Shown: positions 1,521 to 20,794 of the stretch, piece after piece
Position numbering within the stretch: the first letter of the stretch is position 1
Layout: every line of letters begins with the position of its first letter
Assembly: GCA_016793965.1 (NCBI GenBank)
Contig: JAEULF010000245.1
Location: forward strand, 1 to 36,308
Source: Alphaproteobacteria bacterium
Lineage (GTDB): Bacteria > Pseudomonadota > Alphaproteobacteria > JAEULF01
Direction: 5' to 3'
DNA length: 36,308 bases
Notes under the pieces: model-generated
The model's input: only the letters and a program-made list of their open reading frames with translations
What the model was told of the DNA's origin: nothing
Database searches by the model: none
Program-made: the position numbers and the translations under genes

Positions 1521-3554
1521 ATGGCCACGGCTGCCCCGACCACCGCGACCGCCGCTGTTCCCCTGCCGCCGCGCAAGGGCAGTCCCGAGCACCGCCGCAT
1601 GGCCGACGCGATCCGCGCGCTCGCCATGGACGCCGTCGAGGCGGCGAAGTCAGGCCATCCCGGCATGCCGATGGGCATGGCCGATGTCGCCACGGTGCTC
1701 TGGACGCGGTTCCTCAAGCATGACCCGAGCGATCCGGCTTGGCCCGATCGCGATCGCTTCGTGCTCTCGGCCGGGCATGGCTCGATGCTGCTCTACGCGC
1801 TCCTGCACCTGACCGGCTATCCGGGCATGACCATCGAGGAGCTGAAGCGCTTCCGCCAGAGCGGGTCGCGCACGCCCGGCCATCCCGAGTACGGGCACGC
1901 GCCCGGCGTCGAGACCACGACCGGGCCGCTCGGGCAGGGCCTCGCCAACGCCGTCGGCATGGCGCTCGCCGAGCGGTTGACCGCCGCGCGGTTCGGCGCC
2001 GACCTGGTGGACCACCGGACCTACGTGATCGCCGGTGACGGCTGCCTGATGGAGGGCATCAGCCAGGAAGCGATCTCGCTGGCCGGTCACCTCAAGCTCT
2101 CGAAGCTGGTCGTGCTCTTCGACGACAACGGCATCTCCATCGACGGTCCGACCAGCTTGTCGACCTCCGAGGACCAGCAGGCCCGGTTCCGCGCCGCCGG
2201 ATGGTCCGTGCAGTCCGTCGATGGCCACGATCCCGAGGCGGTGGCCAAGGCGATCGAGGCTGCGCGTGGATCCGACAAGCCCAACCTCATCGCCTGCCGC
2301 ACCATCATCGGCTACGGCGCGCCGAGCAAGGCAGGCTCCGCCTCGAGCCACGGCTCACCTTTGGGCGCCGGCGAGATCGCTGGCGCGCGCGCGGCGCTCG
2401 GCTGGACCTATGGACCGTTCGAGGTGCCTGAGGACTTGCGCAAGGCATGGCTCGATGCCGGCCAGCGCGCGCGGTCGGAGCATGCGGCCTGGTCGCGCCG
2501 CCACGCCGGAGCGAGCCAGCGCGCGGAGTTCGACCGCGCCATGGCGGGACGCCTCCCGGCCGATTGGCGCAAGAGCCTCGACGCCCTGGTCGCGAAGTGG
2601 ATCGTCGAGAAGCCGAAGCTGGCGACGCGCCAGGCGTCCGGCGACGTGCTCGAGGCGCTCAACGCATCGATCCCCGAGCTGATCGGCGGCTCCGCCGATT
2701 TGACCGGCTCGAACAACACCAAGACCAAGGCCGCCAAGGCCGTGGCCGCGGCCGACGGCTACGCGGGCCGCTACGTCTATTGGGGCGTGCGCGAGCACGG
2801 CATGGCGGCGGCGATGAACGGGATGGCGCTGCATGGCGGCGTCATTCCCTATAGCGGCACGTTCCTGGTCTTCACCGACTACTGCCGCCCGTCGATCCGC
2901 CTCGCCGCGCTGATGGGGCTGCGCGTCATCTACGTGATGACTCACGATTCGATCGGCCTCGGCGAGGACGGGCCGACGCACCAGCCGATCGAGCACCTGG
3001 CGAGCCTGCGTGCCATCCCGAACCTCCTGGTGATGCGGCCGGGCGACGCCGTGGAGACGGCGGAGTGCTGGGCGGTCGCCCTCGAGCGGCGCGACGGCCC
3101 GACCGTGCTGGCGCTGACGCGCCAGGCCCTGGCGCCGCAGCGGATCGTCGTGCTGGCCGAGAGCCCCGTCGCGCGCGGCGCCTACGTGCTCTCCGAGGCG
3201 CAGGGTAAGCGCAAGGCGACGATCGTGGCGACCGGCTCGGAGGTGGAGATCGCCGTCGCCGCACGGTCTCTGCTGCAGGCCAAGGGGATCGGCGTCCGCG
3301 TTGTGTCGATGCCCTGCACCCAGCTCTTCGATGCGCAGCCGCAGGACGAGCGCGATGCCGTGCTGCCGCCGGGCGAGCCGGTCGTCGCCGTCGAGGCGGC
3401 GATCGGCTACGGCTGGGAGCGCTACACCGGGTCGAAGGGTAGGTTCGTCGGCATGCAGGGCTTCGGCGCCTCGGCGCCGTACCAGGAGCTCTACAAGCAG
3501 TTCGGCATCACGCCGGAGGCCGTGGCCCAAGCCGTCGTCGAGGCGATCGGCTAG
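1521..3554 (+). CDS. tkt: transketolase
   Basis: Thiamine-diphosphate enzyme of the non-oxidative pentose phosphate pathway (and the Calvin cycle where present). It moves two-carbon units between ketose and aldose phosphates. The protein is 677 residues, full length for the family. Visible landmarks: [12 protein letters not shown] near residue 37, the ThDP/Mg motif GDGCLMEG with a downstream DDNGISIDG, the pyrimidine-domain [19 protein letters not shown], and [21 protein letters not shown] for sugar-phosphate binding. The ATG at 1521 gives the usual short N-terminal tail before the first helix. The longer frame beginning at 1458 has no family support. Only a weak GAG precedes the start. The gene stands alone and meets the convergent coq9 gene with 2 bp between the two stop codons. 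No other pentose-phosphate or Calvin genes are nearby. Confidence 0.97.
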
Positions 3555-3556
3555 GG

Positions 3557-4225
3557 TCAGCGAGCGCGGAACGCGCCGCGCTCGCGCAGGCCGCGCAGGA
3601 CCGCGAACGGATCGATGGCGGACAGGCGCCGCACAAGGTCGCCGGCGGAGCGACCGACGCGCAGCACCTCGGCGATCCGCCGGTCGAGGAAGGCCCAGGT
3701 GGCCGCGTTTCCGTCGCTGCGGTCGTCGAGCCAGTAGAGCAGGGTCGCCGCGTAGACGCCGGCGAGCAGCCCGCGCTTGGTGTAGTAGTTGAAGTCGACT
3801 GACGTGTCGCCGATCGTCCACCAGATCGCGTCGACCGTGCGGCAGAGCGAGGCTAGCGCGCGCGGCGCGTTGTGCGGCAACGCCCAATGCGCCAGGGCGA
3901 GGCGGACCGCCTCCTTGTGCGCCTCCGCCTGCTCCAGGCGCAGACGGATCGCCAGCGCGACTCGCTCGCGCACCTTCAGGCCAGACAGGTCGCGTGCCTC
4001 AAGCGCCGCGGTCATCTCGCGGTCGGCGCGCGCCACGAACAGGGCGATCGCGTCGTCGACGCCGCCCGGAAAGGCCATCATCAGGTGCGCAGCGTCGGCA
4101 CCAGCGTCCTCAGCGCCGGCGCGCAAGCTGCGCGCCGACCAGCCGTCGAACGCGACATGGAGGAGCGCAGCGGACAGGATCCGCTCGCGCAACGCGTCGA
4201 CAGGGTTGCCGTCGGTGTCTGCCAT
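3557..4225 (-). CDS. coq9: COQ9 family protein (ubiquinone biosynthesis accessory)
   Basis: A 222-residue protein of the COQ9 / RpsU-divergently-transcribed family. COQ9 is a TetR-fold lipid-binding protein that in eukaryotes presents the ubiquinone intermediate to the hydroxylase COQ7; a comparable role in alphaproteobacteria is inferred. Landmarks are the N-terminal helix-turn-helix-like part (LRERILSAALLHVAFDGWS), the AHKEAVRLALAHWALPHN stretch, and the C-terminal DAIWWTIGDTSVDFNYYTKR block typical of the family. The ATG at 4225 follows the def stop after a single base, with GAGGAGG just upstream inside def, so it is coupled to peptide deformylase. A COQ7 homologue lies 13 kb away in this same window (17320-17895). 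Its stop nearly touches that of transketolase. Confidence 0.88.
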   Translation of the reverse strand: MADTDGNPVDALRERILSAALLHVAFDGWSARSLRAGAEDAGADAAHLMMAFPGGVDDAIALFVARADREMTAALEARDLSGLKVRERVALAIRLRLEQAEAHKEAVRLALAHWALPHNAPRALASLCRTVDAIWWTIGDTSVDFNYYTKRGLLAGVYAATLLYWLDDRSDGNAATWAFLDRRIAEVLRVGRSAGDLVRRLSAIDPFAVLRGLRERGAFRAR

Positions 4226-4226
4226 G

Positions 4227-4811
4227 TCATTCCTCCTCGTCGCCGGCGCCGGGAGGGCCGGCCAGGGGCGGCGCGCCCTCCGGAACGCCGTGCCGGAGCT
4301 CCTCGGTGAAGAGCAGCAGCGAGAGGTCGCGCATGCGCTGAGGGTAGAGGATTCCGTCAAGATGGTCGATCTCGTGCTGAGCGACGCGAGCATGGAAGCC
4401 AGAGGCGACGCGATCGACCGACGTGCCGTTGAGGTCAAGGCCGCGGTATCGGATCCGGCGCCACCGCGGGACAACGCCGCGCAACCCGGGAACGGAGAGG
4501 CAGCCCTCCCAGCCGTCGGCCTGCGCGCCGTCCAGGGGCTCGATCGACGGATTGCAGAGGATCGTCAGCCCGGCGGCCGCGTCGTCCGCGTCATCCGGAT
4601 CTTCGGCGCGGCCGGGCGGCACGAAGAAGACGACAAGGCGCAAGGGCACGTGCACCTGAGGCGCAGCGAGGCCGGCACCCGAGGCATCGCGCATCGTCTC
4701 GATCATGTCGGCAGCGAGAGCCCGGATCTCAGGCGCCGTCGCGTCGCTCACCGGGTCGGCCGGGCGGCGCAGGACAGGATGCCCCATGCGGGCGATTTTC
4801 AAGATGGCCAT
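4227..4811 (-). CDS. def: peptide deformylase
   Basis: Metallohydrolase that removes the formyl group from the initiator methionine of nascent proteins. All three family motifs are present in the 194-residue protein: GAGLAAPQ (45-52), EGCLS (102-106, metal ligand Cys104), and QHEIDH (145-150, ligands His146 and His150, catalytic Glu147). The tail after residue 160 is slightly long and acidic (ends GDEEE). The start is chosen as ATG 4811 because MAILKIARMGHPVLR matches family N-termini. There is no Shine-Dalgarno sequence, and a hairpin abuts the ATG (see 4812-4826). An in-frame GTG at 4871 overlaps the rsmA stop as GTGA and would add 20 residues. def sits between rsmA and coq9 rather than beside fmt, its common partner. 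Confidence 0.95.
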   Translation of the reverse strand: MAILKIARMGHPVLRRPADPVSDATAPEIRALAADMIETMRDASGAGLAAPQVHVPLRLVVFFVPPGRAEDPDDADDAAAGLTILCNPSIEPLDGAQADGWEGCLSVPGLRGVVPRWRRIRYRGLDLNGTSVDRVASGFHARVAQHEIDHLDGILYPQRMRDLSLLLFTEELRHGVPEGAPPLAGPPGAGDEEE

Positions 4812-4826
4812 GCGGCAGGGTGCCGC
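4812..4826 (-). promoter_or_regulatory. hairpin directly before the def start codon
   Basis: On the minus strand GCGGCA-CCC-TGCCGC runs straight into the ATG at 4811: a perfect 6-bp stem with a 3-base loop, in the place where a ribosome-binding site would be. No purine-rich Shine-Dalgarno sequence is visible. It may reduce independent initiation and make def depend on translation arriving from rsmA. This is a structural observation; the function is inferred. Confidence 0.35.
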
Positions 4827-4867
4827 GAAGTCGCTGCTCTGCCAAGGCCCGGCGAGCCCAGGCCCGG

Positions 4868-5767
4868 TCACCGAGGCCCGGCGCGACGGGCGCGCAGCGC
4901 CGAGGCGAGCCGGTCGAACGCCGCGACATCGAGCTCTTCGGCGCGCGCGGTCTCCGGGACCCCGGCTGCCGCAAGCAGCGCGCCAGCATCGGCGCCCAAT
5001 GATTGCAGGCTCTGGCGCAGCATCTTGCGGCGCTGCCCGAAGGCGGCGGCGGTGACGTCCTGCACCGCCGCCCATTGCTCGGCGCTCGGCAAGCTGGCGT
5101 GGGGCACCAGCCGCGCGACGGCGGAATCAACCTGCGGGGGCGGCGTGAACGCCGCCGCCGGCAGGGTCATCGCCTTGGCGACAGTGGTCACGGTCTGCGC
5201 AGCGACGGAAAGGCGTCCGTAGGCCTTGCGTCGCGGCGCCGCCGCAAGGCGCTCGGCAACCTCCTTCTGGAACATCAGCAGCATTCCGACGAGGGCGGTG
5301 CCGCGGCTGGCGACGATGGCGTCGAGCCAGCCGATCAGCAGCCGCGACGCGACATTGTAGGGCAAGTTCGCCACGATGCGCCGCGGCGCCGGTCCGAGCG
5401 CGCTGACATCGACCTCGAGCGCGTCGGCCTGGATCACCGTCAGCCGTCCTGGAAATGCCGCGACCAGCTCGTCGAGCGCGACCACGCAACGTGCGTCCTT
5501 CTCGACCGCGACGACGGTCGTCGCGCCCTCGATCAGCAGGGCGCGGGTCAGGCCGCCTGGCCCTGGGCCGATCTCGATGGTCGTTCCCTCGGTGAGGCCG
5601 CCGGGAAGCTCCGCTGAGGCGACGCGCGCGATCCGGCGCGTCAGGTTGAGGTCGAGCAGGAAATGCTGGCCGAGCGCCTTGACGGCTGCGAGCCCATGTC
5701 GGGCGATGACATCGCGCAGCGGCGGCAAGTCGGGGACGGCCGGCGCGATGTCGATGGCGTCAGCCAT
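4868..5767 (-). CDS. rsmA: 16S rRNA (adenine1518/1519-N6)-dimethyltransferase
   Basis: SAM-dependent methyltransferase (KsgA/RsmA) that dimethylates two adjacent adenines in the 3' hairpin of 16S rRNA, a late step of 30S maturation. The 299-residue protein shows GQHFL (33-37), the SAM motif EIGPGPGGLT (65-74), the acidic VAVEKD strand and the catalytic NLPYNVA (134-140). A C-terminal rRNA-adenine-methylase tail contains QRRKMLRQSL. The ATG at 5767 overlaps the pdxA stop by 8 bases (ATGGCTGA). An upstream in-frame ATG at 5788 would add 7 residues and lies further inside pdxA. Being directly downstream of surA and pdxA is the classic proteobacterial arrangement. Confidence 0.96.
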   Translation of the reverse strand: MADAIDIAPAVPDLPPLRDVIARHGLAAVKALGQHFLLDLNLTRRIARVASAELPGGLTEGTTIEIGPGPGGLTRALLIEGATTVVAVEKDARCVVALDELVAAFPGRLTVIQADALEVDVSALGPAPRRIVANLPYNVASRLLIGWLDAIVASRGTALVGMLLMFQKEVAERLAAAPRRKAYGRLSVAAQTVTTVAKAMTLPAAAFTPPPQVDSAVARLVPHASLPSAEQWAAVQDVTAAAFGQRRKMLRQSLQSLGADAGALLAAAGVPETARAEELDVAAFDRLASALRARRAGPR

Positions 5768-12377: not shown

Positions 12378-12992
12378 TCAGTCGCGCGGCGCATGCTTGG
12401 CCAAGATCCGCTGCAGCGTGCGGCGATGCATCCGCAATCGGCGGGCGGTCTCGGAGACGTTCCTGTCGCATTGCTCATAGATGCGCTGGATATGCTCCCA
12501 GCGCACCCGGTCGGCCGACATGGGGTCCTGCGGCGGCGACGGCGGCGAGCCCGCGGACGCCAATAGGGCCGCCTCGATCTGGTCGGCATCGGCGGGTTTC
12601 GGCAGGTAGTCCACGGCGCCGGCCTTAACAGCGGCCACGGCAGTCGCGATGTTGCCATAGCCGGTCAGGATGATGATCCGCGTCTCCTGCCTGGCCGCGC
12701 GCAGGATCGGCACAAGGTCGATGCCGCTGCCGTCGCCCAGCCGCATGTCGATTACGGCGAAATCTGGGCAGAGCCCGGGGGCTACGCGGCGAGCCTCTGC
12801 CAAGGACTCGGCCGCGGTCACCGCGTAGCCGCGACGTTGCATGGCGCGCTCGAGGGACAGCCTGAAGGGCGCATCGTCATCGACGATGAGCATCCGCGGC
12901 TGGCCACGGGCCAGTACTGACCCGTCGAGACGGTCGCTCGACGGCATCGCAGGGGCAGGGCTGACGGCCGCTGGGTCGCTCACGCCGGTCAC
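12378..12992 (-). CDS. regA: redox response regulator RegA/PrrA/ActR
   Basis: DNA-binding response regulator of the global redox system that controls respiration, carbon and nitrogen fixation and photosynthesis genes in alphaproteobacteria. The 204-residue protein has an N-terminal extension of about 30 residues. The receiver domain follows, with acidic DDD (38-40), phosphoacceptor Asp82 (VIDMRLGDGSG) and Lys132 (LPKP), then a proline linker. The C-terminal Fis-type helix-turn-helix (RVRWEHIQRIYEQCDRNVSE and on to RRTLQRILAK) is nearly invariant in RegA/PrrA orthologues. The start is a GTG whose GTGA overlaps the regB stop by 4 bases, so translation is coupled. No SenC/PrrC gene is present in the window. 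Confidence 0.95.
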   Translation of the reverse strand: MTGVSDPAAVSPAPAMPSSDRLDGSVLARGQPRMLIVDDDAPFRLSLERAMQRRGYAVTAAESLAEARRVAPGLCPDFAVIDMRLGDGSGIDLVPILRAARQETRIIILTGYGNIATAVAAVKAGAVDYLPKPADADQIEAALLASAGSPPSPPQDPMSADRVRWEHIQRIYEQCDRNVSETARRLRMHRRTLQRILAKHAPRD

Positions 12993-14365
12993 TCCGGTTG
13001 CGCATTCACGGTGAAATGGCTCTTTGGCCAGCGAATCTCAACCTTAGCGCCCGCGCATTGCTCGGGCTGCGCTGCCTCGCGGCCCGTCCAACGCACGGCC
13101 TCCGCTCCGCTCGGAGCGACGTTCGCGAACCGGAGATGGGCCCCGGCCCTGCGCAGCAGCGTATCGGCGATGAAGATCCCGAGGCCTAGATGCCCGTCGG
13201 GGCTGGAGCGGACAGAGACATAGGGCTCGCCGAGCCTGTCGAGAACCTGGGAGGGGAATCCCGGGCCATCATCCTGGATGACGACCTCGACCGCGTCGGC
13301 GGACCAGCGCACGGTCACGTCGACGCGCGAGCGCGCGAACTGCGCGGCGTTCTGGATCAGCAGGCCGAGGGCGCGCCGGATCTCCGGCGCCTGGCGCAGC
13401 ACGACAGGCTCGCTGCCGGCGTCGTCGCCCACGGCGCTGCGCTCGCATGAGACGGCGACCGTGCCTGCGGCTTGCGCTCCGGCAGCCGCTTCCGCGATGG
13501 TCCCTAGCGTCGGCCGGACGAAGCTGTCCTCGGTTCCCGGCTCCGGCTCGCGCGCGAGGCGGGCGAGAATCTCTCGGCACCTCTCGGTCTGGGACCTCAG
13601 GAGGGCGACGTCCTCTGCAAGCAGCCCGGACGATTCGAGCGCCCGGCCGATCTCCCGCGCCGTCACCGCGATCGTGGCGAGGGGCGTGCCCAGGTCATGC
13701 GCGACCGCTGCGGCGAGCGCGCCGAGCGACGCCAAGCGCTGCTCGCGCGCCAGCGTCGCCTCGGTCGCCGCGAGGGCCGCGTGCAGCCTGCGCGCGTCCT
13801 GCGCGACGTACCAGGTGTAGGTGGCGATGAAGCCGACGGCGACGGTCAGGGCGACCCAGGACCCGACCGTGTAGAGGACCGACGCGCTCCCGGCCTCCAG
13901 CCGCACCGGCGACGGCATGTGCTCGACGGTGAGGAGACCGACGATCCCGATCGCAAAGGCGCTCAACACGGCTGTGCTGCTGCGGGAGAGCACGCTGGCG
14001 GACACAGTGACAGGGCCGAGGATCAGAACGACGAACGGGTTCTCGACACCGCCCGTCAGGAACAACAACGCCGCGAGCTGCGCCAAGTCGAAAGCGAGCA
14101 TGACGGCTGCAGTACGCTCGCCGACCATCGGCCGGCCGCGGCCGCGGACCTGCAAGGTGGCGTTCGCCACGGCCGAGAGGGCGACGATGGCGAGGCAGGC
14201 GCCGAACGGCAGCTTCATCCCGAGCGCGAGGTGCACGATCAGGAGGCTCACCGTCTGGCCGCAGATCGAGATCCAGCGGATCGCGACCAGCGTCGAGAGC
14301 CTGACGAGCCCGGCCGGCCGGCCGTCTCGGCTGGTGTCGTCGATGCTGCTCCCGTCGCCTGCCAT
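12989..14365 (-). CDS. regB: redox sensor histidine kinase RegB/PrrB/ActS
   Basis: Membrane sensor kinase that phosphorylates RegA when the quinone pool is reduced. The 458-residue protein has about six transmembrane segments (25-190). The quinone-linked motif GGVENPF is at 105-111, the H-box AVAHDLGTPLATI has His223, and Cys263 lies in SQTERCREILARL. Cys263 matches the redox-active cysteine of Rhodobacter RegB. A HATPase domain follows (LLIQNAAQFA, DDGPGFP, GHLGLGIFIA). AHDLGTPL replaces the usual AHELGTPL, a conservative change. An insertion-like stretch near the end (TGREAAQPEQCAGA) adds a second cysteine. AGGAGG lies upstream of the ATG. The gene diverges from the DNA glycosylase at 14444 across 78 bp. 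Confidence 0.95.
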   Translation of the reverse strand: MAGDGSSIDDTSRDGRPAGLVRLSTLVAIRWISICGQTVSLLIVHLALGMKLPFGACLAIVALSAVANATLQVRGRGRPMVGERTAAVMLAFDLAQLAALLFLTGGVENPFVVLILGPVTVSASVLSRSSTAVLSAFAIGIVGLLTVEHMPSPVRLEAGSASVLYTVGSWVALTVAVGFIATYTWYVAQDARRLHAALAATEATLAREQRLASLGALAAAVAHDLGTPLATIAVTAREIGRALESSGLLAEDVALLRSQTERCREILARLAREPEPGTEDSFVRPTLGTIAEAAAGAQAAGTVAVSCERSAVGDDAGSEPVVLRQAPEIRRALGLLIQNAAQFARSRVDVTVRWSADAVEVVIQDDGPGFPSQVLDRLGEPYVSVRSSPDGHLGLGIFIADTLLRRAGAHLRFANVAPSGAEAVRWTGREAAQPEQCAGAKVEIRWPKSHFTVNAQPE

Positions 14366-18442: not shown

Positions 18443-19024
18443 CTAGAGCAGATAGCGCAGGACGACGAAGCCGCCAACAAGCAACAGGGCCGAGACCGTC
18501 GTCACGAGCATCAGGCGCTCTTCGACGAAGGCGCGCACCGGCTCTCCCCAGAGCATGATCAGCAGGGCGAGAAGGTAGAAGCGCATGCCGCGCGACAGGA
18601 TCGAGGCGACGACGAAGACGGCCAGGTCGAGCTGCACCGCGCCGCTGGCGATGGTGACGATCTTGTAGGGGATGGGCGTCAGGCCCTTGATCACGACGAT
18701 CCAAAAGCCCCAGTCGCGGAACCCCTGCTGGAACGCCTCGAAGCCTTTCTCGAGACCGTAGAAGGCGACGATCGGCCGGCCGATATGCTCGTAGAGGAAG
18801 TAGCCGATCGCGTAACCGAGCATGCCGCCGAGCACCGAAGTCGCCGTCGCGACGAAGGCGATGCGCAGGGCGCGCCAGCGCTGCGCGAACATCATCGGCA
18901 GCATCATCACGTCGGGCGGGATCGGGAAGAACGAGCTCTCGATGAAGGATACGATCCCGAGAACCGTCATGGCGCGCGGGTGGGCCGCCAGCTCCATGGT
19001 CGCTTGGTACAGGCGTCGCAGCAC
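18443..19024 (-). CDS. YqaA-like VTT (SNARE-associated/DedA-type) membrane protein
   Basis: A 193-residue inner-membrane protein with the VTT/DedA domain: SFIESSFFPIPPDVMMLPMMF (first re-entrant segment), a GYAIGYFLYEHIG segment, and the second re-entrant motif FWIVVIKGLTPIPYKIVTIASGA. Several transmembrane helices follow. DedA-family members affect membrane energetics and have been linked to lipid flipping; the role of YqaA is unclear. The start is a GTG at 19024 with TGGAGT about 9 bases upstream; an ATG at 18997 would remove nine residues. It is the first gene of the operon with dsbB and coq7. Confidence 0.88.
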   Translation of the reverse strand: MLRRLYQATMELAAHPRAMTVLGIVSFIESSFFPIPPDVMMLPMMFAQRWRALRIAFVATATSVLGGMLGYAIGYFLYEHIGRPIVAFYGLEKGFEAFQQGFRDWGFWIVVIKGLTPIPYKIVTIASGAVQLDLAVFVVASILSRGMRFYLLALLIMLWGEPVRAFVEERLMLVTTVSALLLVGGFVVLRYLL

Positions 19025-19567: not shown

Positions 19568-20794
19568 ATGGCCCAGAGCTACAAGTTCTACGCCGTTGAC
19601 GACGATGCCTATTCGCTCGAGATCGTGTCGCGCTACCTGCGCGACGCCGGGTACGGCGTGTCGACCTCGACGTCCAGCACTCAGGCGCTCAGCGAGATCG
19701 TCGAGCAGCGTCCGGACTGCGTCATCACCGACCTGATGATGCCCGGTCTCGACGGGCTGGAGCTGTGCTCGCGCATCCGCAAGGAGCCTGCGCTCGCCAA
19801 CACCAAAGTGGTCGTGGTCTCCGGCAAGGCGTACGAGTTCGACCGGCGCCGCGCCCGGGAGATGGGGGCCAACGGCTACGTGACCAAGCCGATCAACCGC
19901 GAGGGCTTCTTGTCGAGCGTGCAGCGAATCCTTGAGGACAAGATCGTCGTCGATTTCTGGGGCGTCCGCGGAACGCTGCCGGTGCCGGGGCCAAAGACGG
20001 TGAGGTTCGGCGGCAACACGTCCTGCGTGACCATGTCCTTCCCGGACGAGAGCTACTTCATCTTCGACGCGGGCTCGGGCATCCGCACGCTCGGCGACGC
20101 GCTGATGCGCCGCGGCGGCCGCGTCACGGCGAAGATCTTCATCTCGCACCCGCATTGGGACCACATCAACGCGCTGCCCTTCTTCACGCCGCTCTACATC
20201 CGCGGCAACGAGTTCGAGATCCTCGGCGCCGCGCACGGCGACCGCTCGGTGCGCGACCTGATCAAGGCGCAGATGGACGACGTGTTCTTCCCCATCACGC
20301 TGCGCGAGTTCGGCGCCAGCCTCTCCTTCCGCGACCTGCGCGAGGAGACGATCGAGGTCGGCAGCATCCAGGTGAAGACCATGCTGCTGAGCCATCCCGG
20401 CTACTGCCTGGGATTCCGGATGACCTACAAGGGCCGCTCGGTCTGCTACATCACGGACAACGAGCTCTACCTGCCGACCATGCCGCAGTACAATCCGCAC
20501 TACGTCGAGCGCCTGATCGATTTCGTGCGCGACGCGGACGTGGTCATCACCGACACGACCTACACCGACGAGATCTACCCGCAGCGCGTCGATTTCGGGC
20601 ATTCCAGCGTCAGCCAGGTCGTCGATTTCGTGCACCGGGCCAAGGTGAAGGAACTCTATCTCTTCCATCACGACCCGAGCGAGACGGACGACGATGTCGA
20701 GCGCAAGCATGCGGCCGCCTGCAAGGCGCTCGAGAAGCTCGGATCGTCGACCCGCTGCATCGCCCCGCCCGAGGGATCGCAGATCCGGATCTGA
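19568..20794 (+). CDS. response-regulator receiver fused to metallo-beta-lactamase-fold hydrolase
   Basis: A 408-residue two-domain protein. Residues 1-125 are a receiver with Asp11-13, phosphoacceptor Asp55 (CVITDLMMPGLDG), Ser85 (VVVVSGKA) and Lys107 (VTKPIN), all the residues needed for phosphorylation. Residues 128-408 are an MBL-fold hydrolase: WGVRGTLPVPGP, FGGNTSCV, the metal motif His194-x-His196-x-Asp198-His199, a later His in LSHPGYCLG, Asp in YITDNELY and a final His in LFHHDP. All expected metal ligands seem intact. The MBL part resembles the PhnP/cyclic-phosphodiesterase branch, so a phosphodiester substrate is plausible but unproven. There is no kinase gene next door, so it is an orphan regulator. 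The start at 19568 gives the canonical receiver N-terminus. Confidence 0.92.
   Translation: MAQSYKFYAVDDDAYSLEIVSRYLRDAGYGVSTSTSSTQALSEIVEQRPDCVITDLMMPGLDGLELCSRIRKEPALANTKVVVVSGKAYEFDRRRAREMGANGYVTKPINREGFLSSVQRILEDKIVVDFWGVRGTLPVPGPKTVRFGGNTSCVTMSFPDESYFIFDAGSGIRTLGDALMRRGGRVTAKIFISHPHWDHINALPFFTPLYIRGNEFEILGAAHGDRSVRDLIKAQMDDVFFPITLREFGASLSFRDLREETIEVGSIQVKTMLLSHPGYCLGFRMTYKGRSVCYITDNELYLPTMPQYNPHYVERLIDFVRDADVVITDTTYTDEIYPQRVDFGHSSVSQVVDFVHRAKVKELYLFHHDPSETDDDVERKHAAACKALEKLGSSTRCIAPPEGSQIRI

Follow-up and report, generated by a model that had tools for sequence, protein, structure and literature searches.

The window, a stretch of 36,308 nucleotides of alphaproteobacterial DNA, carries on its plus strand a complete gene for a protein of 408 residues (P0001). 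The gene opens with an ATG at 19568, ends with a stop codon at 20792-20794, and joins a receiver (REC) domain to a hydrolase domain of the metallo-beta-lactamase (MBL) fold in one chain. A longer form of 669 residues starting at 18785, given by the ORF caller, was rejected. The relatives of the protein begin near residue 1 of P0001 and their longer upstream versions are extensions or artefacts of the ORF caller, thus the 18785 start is unsupported. The genes upstream of the fusion lie on the minus strand and encode COQ7, DsbB and a VTT-domain protein, which we take to be of the DedA type. Downstream, an EamA transporter and an L-asparaginase II are encoded on the minus strand, followed by YggT on the plus strand. 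All of these assignments come from Pfam, including those of two minus-strand neighbours that received no name from NCBIfam. The coordinates of the features are collected in Table 1.

Table 1. Features of the fusion gene and of the nearest two-component pair, in window coordinates.
Feature	Position	Strand	Evidence
REC-MBL fusion, complete gene, 408 aa (P0001)	19568..20794	+	Translation, Pfam, full-length conservation
Receiver (REC), residues 1-123; phospho-acceptor D55, acidic D12/D13, S85, K107	19568..19936	+	PF00072
Junction of fixed length, residues 124-131, alpha-5 into MBL beta-1	19937..19960	+	Alignment, model
MBL-fold hydrolase domain (RNase Z/PhnP/YhfI-like), residues 124-408	19937..20791	+	PF12706, profile and fold matches
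HPHWDH metal motif, residues 194-199	20147..20164	+	Sequence; H194, H196, W197, D198, H199 invariant in 80/80
H276, metal ligand	20393..20395	+	Residue check; kept in 80/80
D297, metal ligand; invariant E299 two residues further	20456..20458	+	Kept in 80/80
H345-S346, RNase Z HST position	20600..20605	+	Alignment to RNase Z; kept in 80/80
H367-H368, final metal ligand	20666..20671	+	Residue check; kept in 80/80
Histidine kinase (HATPase_c, weak HisKA)	12989-14365	-	Pfam; part of nearest two-component pair
Response regulator with Fis-type HTH	12378-12992	-	Pfam; same pair as the kinase

Both domains are recognised by Pfam above the curated cut-offs. Response_reg (PF00072) covers residues 9-117 (E 1.9e-26, 92.8 bits against a cut-off of 30.2) and Lactamase_B_2 (PF12706) covers residues 165-368 (E 1.1e-15, 58.2 bits against a cut-off of 27). 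The receiver signature is complete in the window protein: D11-D12-D13, D55, S85 and K107-P108 supply the acidic pair, the phospho-accepting Asp, the Ser/Thr and the Lys of the REC superfamily. The MBL part shows the HxHxDH motif and the further His, Asp and His ligands of a PF12706 hydrolase. Its di-metal site is complete with H194, H196, D198, H199, H276, D297 and H367/H368, to which H345-S346 can be added, and W197 is present within the motif; D297 presumably serves as the bridging metal ligand. The first-pass annotation had read Asp55, Ser85 and Lys107 as intact, together with the ligands of HPHWDH and the later His/Asp/His in the same chain, and our residue check agrees with it exactly. 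Its view that the output is enzymatic rather than DNA-binding also holds, as no DNA-binding (HTH) family is found in the fusion protein by the Pfam search and the structure model gives two domains with high confidence. This model was computed from an alignment of 57 of the 80 GTDB loci plus the window, chosen mostly for clean coordinates, and is confident throughout (mean pLDDT 92.2, pTM 0.88). Response regulators with enzymatic outputs include PleD, CheB, RpfG and PorX, whose outputs are GGDEF, methylesterase, HD-GYP and PglZ-type domains. PleD and PorX are among the REC matches of the fusion. Like these proteins, the fusion combines REC and an enzyme in one chain, but its output is an MBL-fold hydrolase instead.

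No kinase gene adjoins the fusion, as had been noted at first. The closest one in the window belongs to a self-contained kinase/regulator pair on the minus strand (12378-14365), about 5 kb away, which is presumably of the RegB/RegA (PrrB/PrrA) type. Cross-talk from this kinase to the fusion is a candidate only. The orphan status extends to the relatives: a kinase-like motif is present in flanking ORFs of 8 of the 79 fusion loci and in none at the other 71, by a regular-expression count that may miss kinases and with flanks that are short at many loci. A conserved partner kinase beside the fusion was rejected on this count. At one locus (L103) the overlong ORF of the fusion is preceded, at a distance of about 100 bp, by the end of a hybrid kinase. 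The source genome (4.28 Mb in 481 contigs) contains 70 receiver and 57 HATPase matches, so that elimination cannot single out the partner kinase. In a subset of Alphaproteobacteria (for example L088 and L096) the fusion gene is found after a B12-dependent class II ribonucleotide reductase (27/79) and before a RidA-family gene (29/79), an arrangement that is absent around the window gene.

The full-length fusion is present in 13 of the 385 class genomes, and one of these 13 has two copies. The GTDB species collection, scanned with two peptide patterns derived from the fusions, yielded 192 relatives, and the best 80, which were retained, are all receiver-MBL fusions by match range. These 80 are assigned to Rhodospirillales, other Alphaproteobacteria, Desulfobacterales, Myxococcaceae, Neomarinimicrobiota, Nitrospirae, Nitrospinales, Gamma- and Betaproteobacteria and others, mostly as metagenome bins whose taxon labels may be wrong. 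Identity of 49-59% is kept across distant genomes, which is beyond a chance fusion. The first-pass annotation had proposed to check the conservation of the architecture and had considered that a fusion found only in this organism would speak against its reading; the carriers in the class and in several phyla settle this point in its favour. An assembly error or a one-off fusion was likewise rejected, the architecture being present at 80/80 listed loci of the species scan as well as in the class genomes. Plasmid carriage was rejected too, since the plasmid matches are all less than 60% identical and 2 of 3577 records contain a match that spans 80% of the query at a single place. At 3475-4962 of an Agrobacterium plasmid typed as conjugative (L121, CP129669.1), an MBL hydrolase that matches the query stands directly after a NYN-domain gene and no fusion is found. 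At another locus (L046:9587-11605) separate receiver matches immediately precede and follow the fusion, forming a three-receiver array.

The majority of the MBL relatives carry no receiver. These REC-less sisters are 35-41% identical to the MBL part of the fusion and have identical metal residues (16 REC-less rows aligned with 14 of the 80 fusion loci and the window). A sister copy in the source genome itself (G000 C143, ~39-41% identical) lies directly behind an OmpR-type regulator, and 7 of 31 REC-less MBLs are preceded within 1.5 kb by a receiver encoded on their own strand. Apart from the missing receiver, the sister family differs from the fusion in its gene order, which is MBL, often another gene, and then a cyclase. 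A query with this class III cyclase, whose membrane type was judged by eye, gave 71 matches in 69 genomes at E 1e-70 in the 385-genome sample. The sister MBL lies within 1.5 kb of the cyclase in at least 42 of the 71 matches, and all 42 pairs are on the same strand with the cyclase downstream. The cluster is found in at least 25 of the 39 family codes in which this cyclase occurs. Among the matches listed, the cyclase occurs without a sister partner in 27 genomes, 13 of which have no sister MBL at all. The fixed order of MBL and cyclase is far beyond chance in multi-megabase genomes, with the related genomes not being independent of each other. Examples are L151, L159, L165, L167 and L169, at times behind an OmpR-type regulator. 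The gene between MBL and cyclase encodes a methyltransferase (Methyltransf_24) in L165, and a similar ORF is seen by eye in L169.

The fusion does not share this setting. No cyclase adjoins the window gene, which is not part of a sister-type cluster. A cyclase domain is encoded in the flanks of 4 of the 80 GTDB fusion loci, about what is expected from an estimate of cyclase density, and an enrichment of cyclases beside the fusion was rejected. Cyclase domains are present in all 13 fusion genomes (5-33 per genome) and in 23 of 25 comparison genomes, which were hand-picked as fusion-less relatives of at least 2.8 Mb; the medians are 10 for fusion genomes versus 6 (p 0.06), and co-occurrence of fusion and cyclases was rejected as weak. 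In a quick tree without outgroup (28 of the 80 fusion loci plus the window, three long rows included) the fusions form a single clade on a long branch of 1.56 with SH-aLRT 99. With such a branch the substrate may have changed, and the function of the sister need not carry over to the fusion.

The MBL part had been described as resembling phosphodiesterase-type members of the fold, and the profile and fold matches point the same way. Its model matches E. coli ZipD (2cbn, labelled ribonuclease Z; Z 29.3, rmsd 2.3, 249 residues aligned), B. subtilis RNase Z (Z 28.4, rmsd 2.4, 245 aligned), B. subtilis YhfI (6kns_B; Z 27.6, rmsd 2.3, 236 aligned), PhnP (Z 23.8, rmsd 2.9, 235 aligned), yeast PDE1 (Z 23.8, rmsd 3.3, 268 aligned) and Brucella MBL proteins with GMP or AMP in the crystal (Z 23.0 and 22.8), where gaps of a few Z units are not decisive and RNase Z is within about 2 units of YhfI. 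A PhnP-family diphosphatase (6b9v, Z 24.0), PqqB and an arylsulfatase (8gyg) have the same fold at similar Z. Foldseek ranks YhfI first, and a profile of 31 MBL domains matches RNase Z (E 4e-16) and PhnP (1e-4). Fold likeness by itself is no evidence of function.

More specific indications come from the YhfI-type enzymes. One study describes them as two-zinc homodimers with an HxHxDH motif, in which the partner protomer adds catalytic residues (E74 and Y112 of Apyc1), and reports that YhfI prefers cAMP and cGMP (PMC9117128). Another proposes a group of atypical class II phosphodiesterases that comprises Rv1339, YhfI and C. glutamicum CpdA and has the motif [T/S]HXHXDH, in which X is mostly hydrophobic or small; it reports that Rv1339 in extracts hydrolyses several cyclic nucleotides but not c-di-GMP or ATP (PMC9293780). 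The window protein fits the signature of these cyclic-nucleotide phosphodiesterases with SHPHWDH at residues 193-199. By fold and profile comparison it shares with YhfI, M. tuberculosis Rv1339 and CpdA the MBL fold, PF12706 and [T/S]HxHxDH. It differs from YhfI, whose chains have one domain of 240-246 residues, in the phospho-receiver in front, and its W197 is larger than most of the X residues described for the motif. As substrates, both RNA and cyclic nucleotides had been suggested in the first-pass annotation. The latter guess gains from the cyclase cluster of the sister and from the published activities of YhfI and Rv1339, which together favour a phospho-controlled cyclic-nucleotide phosphodiesterase; the former loses ground, because the arm insertion of RNase Z is missing.

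A phospho-regulated phosphodiesterase or phosphatase may instead act on another small molecule, such as a PhnP-like cyclic ribose phosphate, a dinucleotide, a nucleotide sugar, or a sulfate or phosphate ester. This would agree with the similar Z values of PhnP, 6b9v, PqqB and 8gyg and with the length of the branch leading to the fusions, which permits an altered substrate. However, no recurrent linked pathway gene is found among the 79 loci beyond housekeeping neighbours, namely the ribonucleotide reductase and RidA genes, and the genes surrounding them in the alphaproteobacterial subset, and we regard this reading as rather unlikely.

Improbable, to a higher degree, is a phospho-regulated RNA or oligonucleotide nuclease which would have kept an RNase Z-like activity, with the receiver gating access. 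Ribonuclease Z/ElaC does give the best profile match and the top Z scores, H345-S346 aligns at its HS[T/S] position (the HST motif), and some alphaproteobacterial copies lie between the ribonucleotide reductase and RidA genes. But the score for RNase Z is 73.7 bits against an NCBIfam cut-off of 292.95. Furthermore, the tRNA-binding arm of RNase Z sits between motifs III and IV. This interval spans 63 residues in RNase Z (chain 150-213) versus 18 in the MBL profile (164-182), which is about 45 extra residues, and H276 and D297 of the window protein are only 21 residues apart. With the arm insertion missing, a tRNase role of the fusion is unlikely, and RNase Z proper was rejected on the sub-cut-off score and the missing insertion. 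The clustering of the sister family with a cyclase also stands against a nuclease.

The conservation within the fusion family is consistent with a working enzyme under receiver control. In 80 aligned copies (79 loci plus the window; L044, where the gene is split across two ORFs, was omitted) the metal residues, E299 and H345-S346 are invariant. In the receiver, 76 copies retain D55, 79 retain D12 and 79 retain K107, with R in place of K107 in one, and the spacing from K107 to W131 is identical in 79. The receiver part is the more variable one (mean majority 0.57 vs 0.71). Within it, alpha-4/beta-5 (0.67/0.78) are the best conserved elements and alpha-1 (0.40) is the least conserved, which suggests a fixed output face and a variable side towards the kinase. 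Four copies (L058, L060, L104 and L107) have E, G, N and N at the position of D55 and retain every metal residue; judged from their sequences, they are possibly phosphorylation-independent or locked forms. Alternatively, the MBL domain might serve for binding or protein interaction and have no relevant catalysis, or the receiver might work independently of phosphorylation. This reading would accommodate the four copies without D55 and the one with R for K107, but is very improbable against metal residues kept in 80/80 copies and a receiver part that varies more.

We return to the cyclic-nucleotide reading, in which the fusion is an orphan response regulator and its MBL output most likely a cyclic mononucleotide phosphodiesterase; taken as a whole, this explanation is about evenly balanced between right and wrong. 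A histidine kinase encoded elsewhere would phosphorylate D55. Through the alpha-4/beta-5 face, which is conserved, and the rigid junction of alpha-5 with beta-1, the phospho-signal would then reach the predicted two-metal phosphodiesterase, an MBL-fold enzyme of the RNase Z/PhnP/YhfI branch. The predicted reaction is the hydrolysis of 3',5'-cyclic mononucleotides (cAMP or cGMP), by which the second-messenger level would be set by a two-component signal; phosphorylation, hydrolysis, the substrate, and the coupling with its sign are what we infer here. The analysis itself shows the domain make-up, the intact sites, the conservation, the predicted fold, the single fusion clade and the clustering of the sister with a cyclase.

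Among titles and abstracts of the open-access literature no description of a receiver-MBL fusion was found; an earlier mention in a review is possible, and subscription papers and database annotation are outside this scope. Enzyme-output response regulators are a known kind, and so are MBL phosphodiesterases; it is their combination that was not met in the open-access literature, nor was the sister's cyclase cluster encountered there, in searches directed at other subjects. For c-di-GMP, enzymes switched by a receiver are well known. More tentatively, the fusions may represent a widespread and hitherto undescribed class of response regulators acting as phosphorylation-gated cyclic-nucleotide phosphodiesterases which remove or spare cAMP or cGMP, with the REC-less sister running a dedicated cyclase-phosphodiesterase cluster, in some cases under an OmpR-type regulator. 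If true, two-component sensing would be linked directly to cyclic mononucleotides in bacteria with many cyclases of unknown control. The sister cluster, in turn, gives many proteins annotated only as 'MBL fold metallo-hydrolase' an assignment that is easy to test.
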